From the NCBI GenBank assembly GCA_944380185.1, contig CALWGV010000003.1, positions 1 to 36,049 on the forward strand: a DNA stretch of 36,049 nucleotides. Direction: 5' to 3'. The position numbers were made by a program, and so were the translations under genes. Position 1 is the stretch's first letter. Each line of letters opens with the position of its first letter. Below the pieces are notes generated by a model. That model worked only from the letters and a program-made list of their open reading frames with translations, was not told where the DNA came from and searched no databases. This DNA comes from an uncultured Lachnospiraceae bacterium. GTDB taxonomy: Bacteria; Bacillota; Clostridia; Lachnospirales; Lachnospiraceae. Positions 4,019-9,580 of this stretch are shown piece by piece.

Positions 4019-5455
4019 TCACCCCTGCAGGTGCAGCACCTGAATCAGGAAAAGCCAGGCCAGGCCATAATAGGCGATCACTGCTACAAGGTCATTGACC
4101 GTGGTAATCAATGGTCCGGAAGCGACGGCCGGATCCACATTGATCTTTTTGAAAAACATAGGAATCACTGTTCCCGCCAAGGCTGAGAGGGTCATGGCAA
4201 GAAGCAGAGCCACGCCCGAGCAGGCTGAGACGGCAAAAGAGAAGCCCAGCGGATAACCCTTGAACAGCCAGACATACAGGCCGATGACCAGAAAGGAAAT
4301 GACCGCCAGCACTGCGCCATTTATAAATCCTACTCTTGTCTCCTTTGCTACCAGTGATATTTTTTCTTTGCGCCCCAGTTTTTCATCGGTCAGTACCCGA
4401 ATTGTCACGGCCAGAGACTGCGTACCTACATTGCCGGCCATATCGAGAACCAGAGACTGGAAGCATACGACGATGGTCAGCTGCGCCACAACTCCCTCGA
4501 ACATTCCCACAACACTGGACACCACAATGCCCAGGCCCAGCAGGATAACCAGCCAGGGCAGACGCTTGCGGGCACTCTCCTTTACGGTCTCCGACAAATC
4601 CTCCTCGGCGGCCAGACCGCCCAGCTTTGCGTAATCCTCTCCCATCTCATCGTCCACCACCTGCATGAAATCCTGAGCAGTGATAACACCCAAAAGACGG
4701 TTCTCATTATCCAGTACAGGAATAGAATCCTCCGAATAATTCCGGATTCTGGCCAGACAGTCATCGATCTGTTCCTGTGCATACACATAAGGATAAGAAG
4801 TTTTAATGATCGTCTCCAGCTCTGTATTCTCCCTGGCTACAATCAGGTCCTTCAGGTCAATGGCACCATAAAACACATGCTTGTCATCCACCACATAGAT
4901 CGTGGACACATTGTCGTTATCTGCCGCCTGACGGATCAGTTCATGCATAGCTTCCCGCACGCTGAGTCCCGGCGTGATCTCAATGTGGTTGGTGGTCATA
5001 ATACTGCCAATCTCGTCCTCATCAAAAGACAGGAGAAGGGCAATGTCCTGCTTGGCCGACTCCTCCAGAAGCTCCACCAGCATGCTTCTCTCGTTCTTGT
5101 CCAGCTCCTTCAGATAATCTGCCGTGACATCGGCATCCATACAGGAAAGGACATCTGCCTTTTTGCGAACCCCCAGCTCATTTAAATAAGGGGACATATC
5201 GTCCAGATATTCAAAAATCTCCGCCAGAGCATCCGAATCCATCACATGATACAGGCGCAGGCGATCCGCCGGGGTAAGCTCAGGCAAAACCGCCGCAATA
5301 TCTCCCTCATGATAGCCGGAAATTTTCCTTTTTAACAGAGCCGGAGAGTTGTTGCCCGTGATAATCTCCCGCAGCTCCTTCTGATAGTCTCTGTGCTGCA
5401 TGCCGGTTGTCCCGGCAGAATGGCTGTTAACCATATCGTTTTTCTTTGCACTCAT
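4019..5455 (-). CDS. mgtE: magnesium transporter MgtE
   Basis: MgtE is a dimeric, Mg2+-gated Mg2+ channel of the cytoplasmic membrane. The 478-residue product shows the family order. A superhelical N-domain (about 20-125, with ADRLRLYHVMDSDALAEIFEYL) is followed by two CBS domains (about 130-255, with IMTTNHIEITPGLSVREAM and LLGVITAQDFMQVVDDE). Five membrane segments follow, carrying GNVGTQS and the pore-region motif DPAVASGPLITTVNDL. The acidic N-domain and CBS residues that bind Mg2+ are plentiful. ATG 5455 has GAGGAGG 8 nt upstream; the 16 in-frame codons above it have no ribosome binding site. A promoter sits about 370 nt upstream, so the gene has a long leader. Confidence 0.97.
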   Translation of the reverse strand: MSAKKNDMVNSHSAGTTGMQHRDYQKELREIITGNNSPALLKRKISGYHEGDIAAVLPELTPADRLRLYHVMDSDALAEIFEYLDDMSPYLNELGVRKKADVLSCMDADVTADYLKELDKNERSMLVELLEESAKQDIALLLSFDEDEIGSIMTTNHIEITPGLSVREAMHELIRQAADNDNVSTIYVVDDKHVFYGAIDLKDLIVARENTELETIIKTSYPYVYAQEQIDDCLARIRNYSEDSIPVLDNENRLLGVITAQDFMQVVDDEMGEDYAKLGGLAAEEDLSETVKESARKRLPWLVILLGLGIVVSSVVGMFEGVVAQLTIVVCFQSLVLDMAGNVGTQSLAVTIRVLTDEKLGRKEKISLVAKETRVGFINGAVLAVISFLVIGLYVWLFKGYPLGFSFAVSACSGVALLLAMTLSALAGTVIPMFFKKINVDPAVASGPLITTVNDLVAVIAYYGLAWLFLIQVLHLQG

Positions 5456-5827
5456 CTGTTTGCCTCCTCTTCTCTCTGCCTGACACAGCCGTGCCAGATC
5501 CATTGTTCACGCGGGCTGACAGATGGCAGGAGGTTTGCCGGCAAATGGGCATAAAAATACCACCGCACCTGATCCAAACCATCCTTCCGTGTATCCCGCA
5601 CCGGTTGGAATGATGTCAAAGGGGCAATGGCAGACAACAAACAGCAATCAAAAATAGTACAGGCGCGAAATCAGAGCCGCGCTCTGCAAACAGGAAAAAG
5701 CGGAGCCGCGGCTGTCTTGCCCGATGATCGATATTTTTCGTCTGCCAGGCCCTTACCTGGTCTGCCGCAACAACTGCCGCCGTCCATAATCTCACCTCTC
5801 TTGCTGATCGTAATTTAATCCTTCGTT
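5456..5827 (-). promoter_or_regulatory. long 5' leader of mgtE
   Basis: About 365 nt lie between the predicted transcription start and mgtE. Clostridial mgtE genes are often controlled by an M-box Mg2+ riboswitch. A segment beginning GAGAGGTGAG...TGGAC near 5778-5800 is faintly reminiscent of the M-box start, but I cannot assemble the full fold. Other elements are stems CAGAGC-GCG-GCTCTG near 5673-5690 and the palindrome TTTGCCGGCAAA near 5533. No U-tract terminator is visible. The same segment can instead be read as a small ORF. Confidence 0.4.
5671..5787 (-). CDS. possible 38-residue leader ORF
   Basis: ATG 5787 lies 4 nt after GAGAGGTGAG, a strong ribosome binding site, about 35 nt from the predicted transcription start. 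The product starts MDGGSCCGRPGKGLADE and ends in a basic VCRARL. It has no membrane segment, and a Cys pair near the N-terminus. I do not recognise it. It may be a regulatory leader peptide, an independent small protein, or part of an untranslated riboswitch that resembles a start site. Its product would be made just before mgtE in the same transcript. Confidence 0.35.
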   Translation of the reverse strand: MDGGSCCGRPGKGLADEKYRSSGKTAAAPLFPVCRARL

Positions 5828-5921: not shown

Positions 5922-6017
5922 GTTCATAAAATAATGGTTGAAGCTACATAACCGCTTCTGCCAACCTGTAGTTCATATAAAATTTCTGTAAAGAAAGAAG
6001 GGATCTGTGATGCACAT

Positions 6018-7541
6018 TTGAGAAATGAGAAACTAAAAGAAAAAACCCGTGAATCCATTACCGCCGTTGTGCCCATCACCATTATCGTGCTTCTGCTCGG
6101 CATTTTCGCCGTTCCTATGGAGGTAGGTACTACGGTTCTTTTTTTAACCGGGGCCGTTCTGCTGATTATCGGCATGGGATTTTTCCAGCTGGGTGCAGAC
6201 ACTGCCATGACACCGTTAGGTGAAGGCATCGGCGGACAGCTCTGGGGAAGCAAAAAACTTCCCGTCATTTTATTTATCTGTTTTTTGATGGGCGCAGTGA
6301 TCACCATCGCCGAACCGGATCTGCAGGTCCTGGCCGCGCAGGTGGAATCCATCCCCAATCAAACGCTGATCTGGACGGTAGCTGTAGGCGTCGGCATCTT
6401 CCTGGCCGTGGCTGTCCTGCGTATCCTGTTTCAAATCAGTCTGTCAAAGATCTTATGTATTCTGTATCTCATCCTGTTTATCATCTCCTTTTTGGCTCCG
6501 TCTGAGTTTGTCGCCGTAGCCTTTGATGCGGGAGGCGTAACCACCGGTCCTATGACCGTGCCCTTTATTATGGCTCTGGGTGTGGGTCTGTGCGCTTCAC
6601 GAAGCGACAAAGACGGCTCCAGCGACAGCTTCGGCCTGGTCTCTCTCTGCAGCGTAGGCCCTATTCTGATGGTCATGCTTTTAGGCATTTTCTACCATCC
6701 CTCTGAAGCGGCCTACAGTATGGTGGAAATGCCTCAGGTGGATACCATACAGGATGTCGTGCGGGAATTTGCGAGGGAACTTCCTCACTATGCTGCTGAG
6801 GTAATGTCCTCTATTTTCCCGATTCTGGCCGTATTCGTCATCTTTCAGGCTGCCACGCGCAAATACCACCGGCGTCAGCTTGTAAAAATGATCATCGGCT
6901 TTGTCTATACCGTGATCGGGCTGATCCTGTTTCTCACCGGCGTCAACGTGGGATTTGCTCCGGTGGGAAATCTTCTGGGCTCCGATCTGGCTGCCGGTCC
7001 TGCCAAATGGCTGCTGATCCCCATCGGCATGGTGATCGGCTATTACATCGTCAAGGCGGAGCCCGCCGTTCAGCTTCTCAATCATCAGGTAGAGTCCATC
7101 ACCAACGGCACCATTTCCGCCAAGGCAATGAACAACTGTCTGTCTTTCGGCGTAGCTGCCGCTGTGGCTCTTGCCATGGTTCGCGTGCTCACCGGATTGA
7201 ACATATACTGGATCATCATTCCCGGCTATGTGCTGGCTCTCGTCATGTCCCGGCTCGTTCCGCCCATCTTTGTCGGTATTGCCTTTGACTCTGGCGGCGT
7301 AGCCAGCGGACCCATGACTTCCACCTTTTTGCTGCCTCTGGCTATGGGTGCTTGTATCTCTGTAGGAGGCAACGTAGTAACCGATGCCTTCGGCATCGTA
7401 GCTCTGGTGGCTCTGGCTCCCCTAATCGCCATTCAGATCATGGGACTTATATACAGCTGGAAAGTCAAGAAACAGCAGCCTGTTGCGGCAGCCGCCGGCA
7501 CTGAGGAAGAGGATGAAATTGTGGAATGGGAGGAAGAATAG
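6018..7541 (+). CDS. DUF1538 integral membrane protein, duplicated
   Basis: A 507-residue polytopic membrane protein of the DUF1538 family; function not established, a transporter or channel is the usual guess. It is an internal duplication. AEPDLQVLAAQVESI (99-113) recurs as AEPAVQLLNHQVESI (347-361), and FDAGGVTTGPMT (169-180) recurs as FDSGGVASGPMT (423-434). These Gly-rich signatures probably form pseudo-symmetric re-entrant elements. The C-terminal tail is Glu-rich. The start is odd: the good ribosome binding site AGAAGGG fits ATG 6010, which reads only Met-His-Ile-stop, and that stop overlaps TTG 6018, the only in-frame start nearby. The PII-like gene follows 2 nt after the stop codon, so the pair is surely one operon. 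Confidence 0.85.
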   Translation: MRNEKLKEKTRESITAVVPITIIVLLLGIFAVPMEVGTTVLFLTGAVLLIIGMGFFQLGADTAMTPLGEGIGGQLWGSKKLPVILFICFLMGAVITIAEPDLQVLAAQVESIPNQTLIWTVAVGVGIFLAVAVLRILFQISLSKILCILYLILFIISFLAPSEFVAVAFDAGGVTTGPMTVPFIMALGVGLCASRSDKDGSSDSFGLVSLCSVGPILMVMLLGIFYHPSEAAYSMVEMPQVDTIQDVVREFARELPHYAAEVMSSIFPILAVFVIFQAATRKYHRRQLVKMIIGFVYTVIGLILFLTGVNVGFAPVGNLLGSDLAAGPAKWLLIPIGMVIGYYIVKAEPAVQLLNHQVESITNGTISAKAMNNCLSFGVAAAVALAMVRVLTGLNIYWIIIPGYVLALVMSRLVPPIFVGIAFDSGGVASGPMTSTFLLPLAMGACISVGGNVVTDAFGIVALVALAPLIAIQIMGLIYSWKVKKQQPVAAAAGTEEEDEIVEWEEE

Positions 7542-7543
7542 TT

Positions 7544-8251
7544 ATGCAGGAACAGCAAAAGGATATGTCATTGCATCTGATTCTGTCCGTAACCGACAGC
7601 AGGGGAGAAAAAACGCTGAGCGCTCTGCTGGAGCAAGCCCATATTCCCCTGCGTTTCCAGTTTCGCGGTCAGGGGACAGCGGATTCAGAACTGCTTCGGG
7701 TCTGCGGACTGGGAGAAAGCGACCGCATCATCACCATGTGGGTCATCCCCCAGGCTGCCGTCCATGTTCTCTTTGAGAAAATGGGAGCAGCTCTGCAGCT
7801 GCGAAAAAGAGGCAGCGGAATAGCAGTCAGTATTCCTCTGACTGCGGCTCAGATGAATTTAGCCCGCTTTATCAACCGCCAGGAAACACAAGAAGCACAG
7901 GAAACCATACCAAACGAAGGGGAGGCAGCAAAAATGGCCGAGAAAAGCAAGTATTCCATGGTAGTCGTAGCTCTGAACCAGGGCTTTAGCGACGAAGTGA
8001 TTGACACTGCCCGCAGGCACGGAGCAAAAGGCGGTACCATCATCAAGGCGCGTCGCCGCGGCCTGGACGAGGCAATGCACTTCTGGGGCATTTCCCTGCA
8101 GGAAGAACAGGAAATCATGTTTATTATCGTCCCCCGGGAATTGAAAAAAACCGTGATGACCGCCATCAGCAAGGAACACGGCCTTCACTCCCCGGCTCAG
8201 GGTCTGGTTCTGTCCCTTCCTGTAGAAGACACACTGGGTCTGGAATCCTGA
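7544..8251 (+). CDS. tandem PII-like regulatory protein
   Basis: A 235-residue soluble protein. The C-terminal half (about 137-235) matches PII-family signal proteins in a divergent form: YSMVVVALNQGFSDEVIDTARRHGAKGGTI, then a T-loop-like stretch KARRRGLDEAMHFWGIS, then EIMFIIVPRELKKTVM. The N-terminal half (about 9-100, LHLILSVTDSRG to GIAVSIPL) has the same strand-helix pattern and the same closing SIPL/SLPV, so it looks like a second, decayed PII fold. A charged linker (about 115-135) joins them. The classical uridylylation tyrosine is absent. ATG 7544 was chosen because GGGAGGA ends just upstream. The 2-nt spacing to the DUF1538 gene suggests that it gates or senses for that membrane protein. 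Confidence 0.8.
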   Translation: MQEQQKDMSLHLILSVTDSRGEKTLSALLEQAHIPLRFQFRGQGTADSELLRVCGLGESDRIITMWVIPQAAVHVLFEKMGAALQLRKRGSGIAVSIPLTAAQMNLARFINRQETQEAQETIPNEGEAAKMAEKSKYSMVVVALNQGFSDEVIDTARRHGAKGGTIIKARRRGLDEAMHFWGISLQEEQEIMFIIVPRELKKTVMTAISKEHGLHSPAQGLVLSLPVEDTLGLES

Positions 8252-8377: not shown

Positions 8378-9367
8378 TCACCGCTTCGATTCTCCACAGA
8401 TTTCCAGTCTTGCCGATTTTCTGCTGTAATGATAAATCCGATCCGACAGATATTCCTGAGCCTCATTGCCCTCTCTATTGATCTGTGCCAGCATTCGCTG
8501 CATTTCCTCCGCTGAAAGAGACTCCGTCTCCGGCAGAAGAATAACCTCATGGATACTGCTGGGAATGACATAGAACCCGCACCCCTTGCACTCGGCAAAT
8601 TTTCTCAGCAAATTGCCGTTCAGCAGAGCCGCCGCCCCAAAATATCGGCCGGTGTTGCTCAGCACATACATCTCATGGCTCTGCCTGGGCATCAGCTCAG
8701 CAAGTATCTGTTCAGCCAAAATCTCCACATCACGTCCCGTCAGATCTCCCCCTCCGGGCGTCTCCTCGATCTGTCGGGTCAGATCCTCCTGCAAAATATC
8801 GCGGATTACCTGTTCCATCGGCGCAATCTCCTCGCCCAGTCTTTCCCCCGTATTTGCTCCAGCCAAGGCAAACAGCGTCTCCTCGTCGGTCCGCCAGAGC
8901 TCCATCTGACGATTCTGCACCATGGCTGTGCCATTGCCGATAAAATAATTTTCAATCAGGAGATAATACACCACAGCCAGGTCCAAAAATCGGCGATGAG
9001 GAACAGTCGAAAGCATTTCCTCGTTTCTCTCATAGTTGATCAGTTTATAGACAATCCGCGAAGAAACCCGGTCAAACTGCTGAAATTCATCTACATCCAA
9101 GTACAAGCCGCAGCGATTGCGTCGATACTCCTCCAGAATTTCCTCCAAAATCTCATCAACCTCCATCCCTCTCTCAAATGCTTCGTAGAAAGGATGCAGA
9201 TAGATCGTCGGAGATACATTGCTTCCTTCCTCCAAAATACACAGCATTTCTTTCTTGAGGTTATTATTCTTATAAACGGTATGTACGCTTACCCTGGCCT
9301 CCGGTCCCAATCTTCGCTGAAGCAGACCAGGAATCACCTGCAGGAATTCTTCATATGACATATTCAT
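8378..9367 (-). CDS. DUF5688 family protein
   Basis: A 329-residue cytoplasmic protein of the DUF5688 family, common in Lachnospiraceae and without known function. Recognisable stretches are VSVHTVYKNNNLKKEML, SPTIYLHPFYEAFERG, DRVSSRIVYKLINYERNEEML, VPHRRFLDLAVVYYLL and, near the end, MYVLSNTGRYFGAAALL followed by GFYVIPSSIHEVILLP. There is no signal peptide or membrane segment from this start. ATG 9367 follows GGGAGGT at 5 nt; ATG 9361 is an alternative. The frame stays open for 63 further codons upstream with a hydrophobic stretch, but without a ribosome binding site. A promoter lies about 215 nt upstream, so this is probably a single-gene unit with a long leader. Confidence 0.8.
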   Translation of the reverse strand: MNMSYEEFLQVIPGLLQRRLGPEARVSVHTVYKNNNLKKEMLCILEEGSNVSPTIYLHPFYEAFERGMEVDEILEEILEEYRRNRCGLYLDVDEFQQFDRVSSRIVYKLINYERNEEMLSTVPHRRFLDLAVVYYLLIENYFIGNGTAMVQNRQMELWRTDEETLFALAGANTGERLGEEIAPMEQVIRDILQEDLTRQIEETPGGGDLTGRDVEILAEQILAELMPRQSHEMYVLSNTGRYFGAAALLNGNLLRKFAECKGCGFYVIPSSIHEVILLPETESLSAEEMQRMLAQINREGNEAQEYLSDRIYHYSRKSARLEICGESKR

Positions 9368-9580
9368 GTATACCTCCCATGCTGATGTTCCATGCCTGGT
9401 TGCAGACAGACATGCTCTATGAAAAACTGCCGCTGCCGACGGATAGACTTTCAGACGGCTGACCTGAATCAGCATATAATAGAAAAAGCTGCCGGAAAGT
9501 TCGCAGAGACAGGAAAGAGTCAGAAGGGTAAAAGACAAGTTATTTTCACGATTCATAATGGATATACGATCTGTATATTT

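Follow-up and report, generated by a model that had tools for sequence, protein, structure and literature searches.

A fused DUF1538 membrane protein and a tandem PII-like protein form a conserved gene pair suggestive of a regulated cation/H+ antiporter

Does a DUF1538 membrane protein with a PII-like gene directly behind it possess a regulator of its own, and what would such a pair transport? Classically, PII proteins are known for controlling the uptake of nitrogen and carbon. The question arises from a stretch of 36,049 nucleotides of an uncultured Lachnospiraceae bacterium (contig CALWGV010000003.1, positions 1 to 36,049; hereafter the window), for which a sequence-only reading had proposed a self-contained channel or transporter with a dedicated sensor, its substrate being left unknown. 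We followed up this proposal by profile searches, structure prediction and comparison of gene neighborhoods.

Results

Layout of the gene pair

The first gene, at 6018..7541 on the + strand, encodes a DUF1538-DUF1538 fusion membrane protein of 507 aa, recognized by PF07556 and an AlphaFold2 model, and the second, at 7544..8251 on the + strand, encodes a tandem PII-like protein of 235 aa. Just as originally described, the genes are 2 nt apart, with the TAG stop codon of the DUF1538 gene at 7539-7541 and the ATG of the PII-like gene at 7544; GGAGGAAG sits upstream of this ATG. The start of the first gene had to be revised. Position 6003, where it had been placed, is an ATC codon, and the earliest in-frame ATG, GTG or TTG is the TTG at 6018, which is the probable, albeit uncertain, start.

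Divergent from the DUF1538 gene is a gene for an MgtE magnesium transporter with CBS domains (4019-5503, - strand, 286 bits), a family that is absent from the 25 commonest neighbor families at other loci. Convergent with the PII-like gene is a gene for a DUF5688 protein (8378-9556, - strand, 311.5 bits). The genes flanking the pair at 53 loci have no marked preference for one strand (28+/25- upstream and 22+/31- downstream), and the commonest Pfam family among flanking genes accounts for 6 of the 82 neighbors scanned.

Two homologous DUF1538 domains with invariant acidic residues

PF07556 (DUF1538) matches the fusion protein in two stretches with 459.6 bits, well above the Pfam gathering cut-off of 22.6. 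The N-terminal domain (6018..6737, + strand; PF07556 at 6075-6692) is UmpA-like, has a K+R bias of +9 and is predicted to be N-in, while the C-terminal domain (6738..7541, + strand; PF07556 at 6822-7451) is UmpB-like, has a K+R bias of -4, is predicted to be inverted and ends in an acidic tail. The two halves are homologous, with an hhalign probability of 99.9% and 29% identity across 227 columns. Both of the duplicated motifs noticed earlier are present as claimed, AEPxxQxLxxQVESI beginning at residues 98 and 347 and FDxGGVxxGPMT at residues 169 and 423. On the + strand the first motif reads AEPDLQVLAAQVESI (6309..6353, residues 98-112) and AEPAVQLLNHQVESI (7056..7100, residues 347-361), and the second reads FDAGGVTTGPMT (6522..6557, residues 169-180) and FDSGGVASGPMT (7284..7319, residues 423-434). 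Neither motif was produced even once by 20,000 shuffles of the DUF1538 protein. Each copy contains one acidic residue (E99, D170, E348 and D424, respectively, in the order of the chain) that is invariant in alignments of 19 and of 68 sequences.

The AlphaFold2 model of the DUF1538 protein is confident (pLDDT 91.4, pTM 0.88). Its helices are broken at residues 97/100, 176/180, 347/349 and 429/432, so that all four motif copies lie at helix breaks with the invariant acids at or near them. A fold comparison of this model with the PDB gave no clear match, which suggests that DUF1538 may represent a new fold and makes the protein a good structural target. When scored against the NCBIfam equivalogs the window protein reaches 171.1 bits of the 490 set as cut-off for UmpA and 143.1 of the 500 set for UmpB. 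Scores this far under the cut-offs mean that its substrate may differ from that of UmpAB.

Opposite charge patterns of the two halves

We calculated K+R bias as even minus odd loop counts, with the loops delimited by the seven helices that the model shows in each half. Fused N domains have a bias of +6.5 (positive in 47/47) and the first genes of DUF1538 pairs one of +4.8 (positive in 33/33), in contrast to -4.7 for fused C domains (negative in 47/47) and -4.5 for the second genes of pairs (negative in 33/33). Overall, N-type domains are positive in 80 of 80 cases and C-type domains negative in 80 of 80. Single DUF1538 proteins average +1.8, with seven of the nine positive and two at zero. A second alignment gave positive N domains in 68/68 and negative C domains in 66/68, the remaining two being one zero and one positive. 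A plasmid-borne DUF1538 pair of Methylocystis has biases of only +1 and -1, its first gene being without its first loop, and the second DUF1538 gene of Chelativorans has a bias of -6. Because of these opposite positive-inside charge patterns, the DUF1538 halves are probably antiparallel.

Conservation of the pairing

The adjacency of the two genes extends well outside this genome. We examined 80 named loci, a biased sample in that they are the best 80 of 568 DUF1538 matches to the window, and found a PII gene directly downstream of DUF1538 in 78. In 77 of these the PII is a single reading frame, truncated at a contig end in one case, and in one, L084, it is two; as for the remaining two loci, L054 stops at a contig edge and L078 has no PII in the sequence covered. 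In L084, from Mobilisporobacter senegalensis, the tandem PII is naturally split into two reading frames (L084:6525-7212).

Among 61 genomes of relatives, DUF1538 is found in 22, and 19 of the 22 have an adjoining PII gene. The other three are L021, L022 and the fragment L023, with ~0.7 kb of downstream sequence covered for L021 and L022. A second DUF1538 locus in one of the 19 genomes (L009) is without PII in the sequence covered. L021 and L022 encode a diverged fused DUF1538 that has no acidic tail and no PII within ~0.7 kb downstream, and these may be a PII-independent branch.

A survey of 299 genomes of the phylum detected DUF1538 in 101. The reverse search of the same 299 genomes with the PII profile (E<=1e-6) likewise matched 101, 100 of them in common with DUF1538. 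Both families thus occur in 100 genomes, DUF1538 only in one (G116), PII only in one (G109, a partial match) and neither in 197 (Fisher p 4e-78, which is no true probability since the genomes are related). The 91 loci around the listed DUF1538 places comprise 97 gene units, and DUF1538 is followed by PII in 91 of the 97. The six units without this pairing are the fragments L165 and L146, L223, which is cut by a contig end, two from L145, where DUF1538 and a PII at the contig edge were entered as distinct units, and L179 of genome G277, the sole absence that contig ends fail to explain. On contigs outside the DUF1538 listing we examined 27 further PII places, of which 21 adjoin DUF1538 and six have no DUF1538 within ~3 kb; one of these six lies in G277. 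In G277 the DUF1538 gene is on contig C36 (L179) and a tandem PII is on another contig, C77 (L242).

Annotated plasmids of the Alphaproteobacteria Methylocystis and Chelativorans have the order DUF1538-DUF1538-'P-II family nitrogen regulator', where the first DUF1538 gene of the Chelativorans plasmid is a 90-aa fragment, and Vescimonas, Peptoclostridium and Paraclostridium have a fused DUF1538 plus P-II. PII annotation beside DUF1538 is already in public records. Among the matches listed in a literature search, with subscription journals and preprints excluded, no paper addressed a DUF1538-PII link. Taken together, these data support the earlier view that a membrane protein of transporter-like character comes with a dedicated PII-type partner. 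Neither of the two outcomes that would have overturned it, no conserved adjacency elsewhere or no PII fold in either half by structure prediction, occurred.

Two side observations concern individual loci. L170, L172 and L180 hold two complete DUF1538-PII units in tandem in one genome. The contig of L041, labelled Enterococcus raffinosus, has a DUF1538-PII pair with a DUF1538 protein 64% identical to that of the window, reflecting contamination or transfer.

The tandem PII-like protein

The structure model of the PII-like protein (pLDDT 80.2, pTM 0.73) contains two ferredoxin-like domains with the double beta-alpha-beta fold of the PII superfamily, and both modelled halves give PII-type structural matches. 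The PII fold on which the sequence-only reading depended is therefore predicted for both halves, namely the N-terminal domain at 7556..7885 (+ strand, ~residues 5-114), which has the more diverged pocket, and the C-terminal domain at 7928..8248 (+ strand, ~residues 129-235). At the sequence level Pfam P-II (cut-off 25) detects only the C half and does so below threshold, with 18.7 bits for the whole protein and 20.5 for the C half alone; a scan of the N half gave no match. In whole-protein scans of seven other family members six pass (32.6-55 bits) and L007 fails (24.2). Profiles of the N and C halves align to each other with an hhalign probability of 98.2% (E 3e-14), as compared with 1.9% for reversed columns and <=4.3% for 30 column shuffles. 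The top PDB match of the PII profile is chain H of 9p1x (E 1.7e-7), with 12 chains within that entry.

We take K58, K90, R101, R38, G27, T29, G35, G37, G87 and G89 to be functional residues of classical PII, the T-loop of which carries Tyr51. In the K58 column E stands in all 46 fused C domains, all 20 split C domains and 12/13 split single domains, and A, S or G in all nine PII proteins of single-DUF1538 units. Throughout the C-type and single PII domains the K90 column is I, L or V (88/88), the R101 column is G (87/88) and R38 is mostly replaced, with G27, T29, G35, G37, G87, G89 and F92 mostly retained. In fused N domains G35 and G89 are retained (46/46 each), whereas G37 has been lost, being absent among the residues listed, and T29 is lost from 22/46. 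The K58 column of these domains holds K or R in 39/46, in an alignment that is gapped nearby, and loss of the K58 site is thus not general. Compared with GlnK, the T-loop is shorter by ~5-6 residues, and the family alignment contains no conserved T-loop tyrosine. The combination of K58, K90, R101 and a full-length T-loop with Tyr51 that would identify a classical nitrogen PII (GlnB/GlnK) is not found.

The N half had been called decayed and the C half clearly PII-like. The first description is a fair one, but the C half has also lost pocket residues. The window's own C-terminal domain lacks G35 and G87, and its sensing may therefore differ. The window's genome (84% complete) gave 0 matches to PF00543 at E<=0.001, its tandem PII-like protein included, and hence no classical PII was found there. 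Elsewhere in the phylum, a sample of 101 genomes includes 68 with a P-II family match, the DUF1538-linked PII subfamily being counted.

Architectures of the unit

A fused DUF1538 with a tandem PII is the arrangement of 43 complete units and a fused DUF1538 with two PII genes that of one. Two DUF1538 genes are accompanied by a tandem PII in 14 units, by one PII in 13 and by two PII genes in six, and a single DUF1538 by a single PII in nine. Among complete units there is accordingly one PII domain in 9/9 single-DUF1538 units and two in 44/44 fused units; none combines a fused DUF1538 with one PII domain or a single DUF1538 with two. Domain trees of 88 units place N-type, C-type and single DUF1538 domains in three groups. 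A tree of 79 paired units shows a single change between the fused and split states and at least two changes in PII number, and joining or separation of the two PII domains happened more than once. Because tree changes are few, the exact matching of domain numbers rests on few evolutionary events.

Discussion

A working model and its alternatives

We believe that the pair is probably a self-contained UmpAB-like monovalent cation/H+ antiporter with its own PII-type regulator. The parts of this model differ in strength. It is quite likely that the PII-type protein is a dedicated regulator of the DUF1538 transporter, and reasonably probable that the DUF1538 protein performs monovalent cation/H+ antiport, whereas the chances are about even that the PII-type protein docks inhibitorily on the cytosolic side. 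The substrate, which the sequence-only reading left unspecified, is narrowed by the related UmpAB, a Na+(Li+,K+)/H+ antiporter according to the available text of its description (PMC5484666).

In this model the DUF1538 halves would lie antiparallel, as an inverted repeat, and together make up the transport unit. E99, D170, E348 and D424 would bind cation and proton, and the helix breaks near them would serve as ion-binding crossovers. The PII-type protein would assemble as a trimer that docks on the cytosolic face of the antiporter via its shortened T-loop, and a small ligand in the inter-subunit cleft would set the throttling of transport. T-loop docking and gating are proposed by analogy with AmtB-GlnK and SbtA-SbtB, as far as the accessible part of the source describes them (PMC8352866). 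A T-loop with 5-6 residues less than that of GlnK could limit pore insertion, which counts against docking. The regulator would sense something other than 2-oxoglutarate with Mg-ATP, and its C-terminal domain would carry most of the sensing. Since K58, K90 and R101 are replaced, R38 mostly so, and the glycines and T29 are mostly kept, we tentatively suggest, by analogy with SbtB and CPII, that the ligand might be AMP, ADP or a cyclic adenine nucleotide rather than Mg-ATP together with 2-oxoglutarate.

The DUF1538 protein could instead transport something else, be it ammonium, a metabolite or an anion like bicarbonate, with PII reporting on the metabolism of that substrate in the manner of SbtB for bicarbonate and GlnK for ammonium. 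This is a serious alternative of lower probability. PII's transporter partners serve carbon or nitrogen uptake in the part of the source available (PMC8352866), the window protein falls far under the UmpA and UmpB cut-offs, and no clear fold match links the DUF1538 model to solved cation antiporters. However, cation/H+ antiport is the activity of the one DUF1538 pair that has been assayed (PMC5484666, available text), the four invariant acids suit cation and proton binding, and PF07556 is listed, in the accessible text of a machine-learning study, among growth-pH features beside cation transporters and Na+/H+ antiporter subunits (PMC13255231).

A further possibility, which we regard as speculative, is that such pairs make up a separate class of transporters, gated by a sensor and built on a membrane fold of their own, derived from a single DUF1538 plus PII by duplication and fusion. 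An ancestral dual-topology DUF1538 homodimer would have worked with one PII, duplication would have fixed opposite orientations of DUF1538, the regulator would have duplicated too, and both partners would have fused later. The N-terminal PII domain would then have become a docking or assembly pseudo-domain, with the C-terminal one still sensing.

It is unlikely that the PII-like protein serves assembly or stability, or no longer senses, instead of acting as a ligand-controlled gate. Several classical ligand residues are indeed replaced, G35 and G87 are missing from the window's C half, and UmpAB functions in E. coli without a PII, at least in the text available (PMC5484666). UmpAB working from two DUF1538 genes alone means that PII is unnecessary for transport as such, but it also speaks against an obligate assembly role, and the pocket glycines and T29 are strongly retained across the family's C and single domains.

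The pseudo-symmetric docking put forward in the sequence-only reading, with one PII copy per DUF1538 half, is improbable. Although PII domain number is one in every single unit and two in every fused unit, the opposite K+R bias would place equivalent surfaces on opposite sides of the membrane, so that the halves should present different faces to the cytosol. Furthermore, of the 33 complete units with paired DUF1538 genes 13 contain one PII, and the fused or split state changes just once on the tree. Finally, despite the public annotation as 'P-II family nitrogen regulator', an ordinary nitrogen PII placed beside the transporter by chance is hardly credible given the near-constant co-occurrence and adjacency, the replacement of K58 in C and single domains and the unconserved T-loop tyrosine.

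Significance and comparison with known systems

The antiporter-regulator model points to a little-studied bacterial way of switching an ion transporter on and off. If it is true, PII control extends to ion and pH balance through a subfamily tied almost exclusively to cation/H+ antiporters, and a role is found for a group of 'P-II family nitrogen regulators' in many gut and anaerobic bacteria. The series of singles, pairs and fusions in both partners also provides material for studying the evolution of antiparallel transporters and their regulators.

The closest characterized proteins are UmpA and UmpB of Halomonas zhaodongensis, which according to the available text jointly perform Na+(Li+,K+)/H+ antiport as a heterodimer; E. 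coli KNabc regained salt tolerance with just these two DUF1538 genes, and co-expression of both was required (PMC5484666). UmpAB resembles the window pair in having two homologous DUF1538 domains with seven predicted TM segments each and differs in being two genes, whereas the window DUF1538 is one fused chain far under the UmpA and UmpB cut-offs. The words PII, topology, antiparallel and inverted have 0 occurrences in the main text of that paper, as available (PMC5484666).

UPF0016 and DUF606 are antiparallel families with dual-topology ancestors, and in 2014 the authors of the study, in its available part, knew these as the sole families with such a diversity of states (PMC4067407). Like DUF1538 they (and SMR) occur as singles, pairs and fusions, and the likeness includes K+R biases of opposite sign where domains are paired or fused, and singles without clear preference; unlike for DUF1538, no soluble partner is mentioned for UPF0016 or DUF606 in that part (PMC4067407).

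Compared with GlnK-AmtB, the DUF1538-PII pair has a different target family, its T-loop is shorter, and its C and single PII domains have other residues in place of K58, K90 and R101. In SbtA-SbtB the regulator, a trimer of SbtB, docks on SbtA from the intracellular side with its T-loop partly blocking the exit, and as with DUF1538-PII, transporter and PII-like regulator share one operon; SbtA contains inverted repeats, as predicted for DUF1538, according to the accessible text on SbtA-SbtB (PMC8352866). SbtA is absent among the listed fold matches of the DUF1538 model. The regulator in most DUF1538 units is a tandem of two PII domains, which sets it apart from SbtB and also from the PII-like proteins CPII and PotN, both single-domain chains. 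SbtB and CPII bind adenine nucleotides (AMP, ADP or a cyclic nucleotide).
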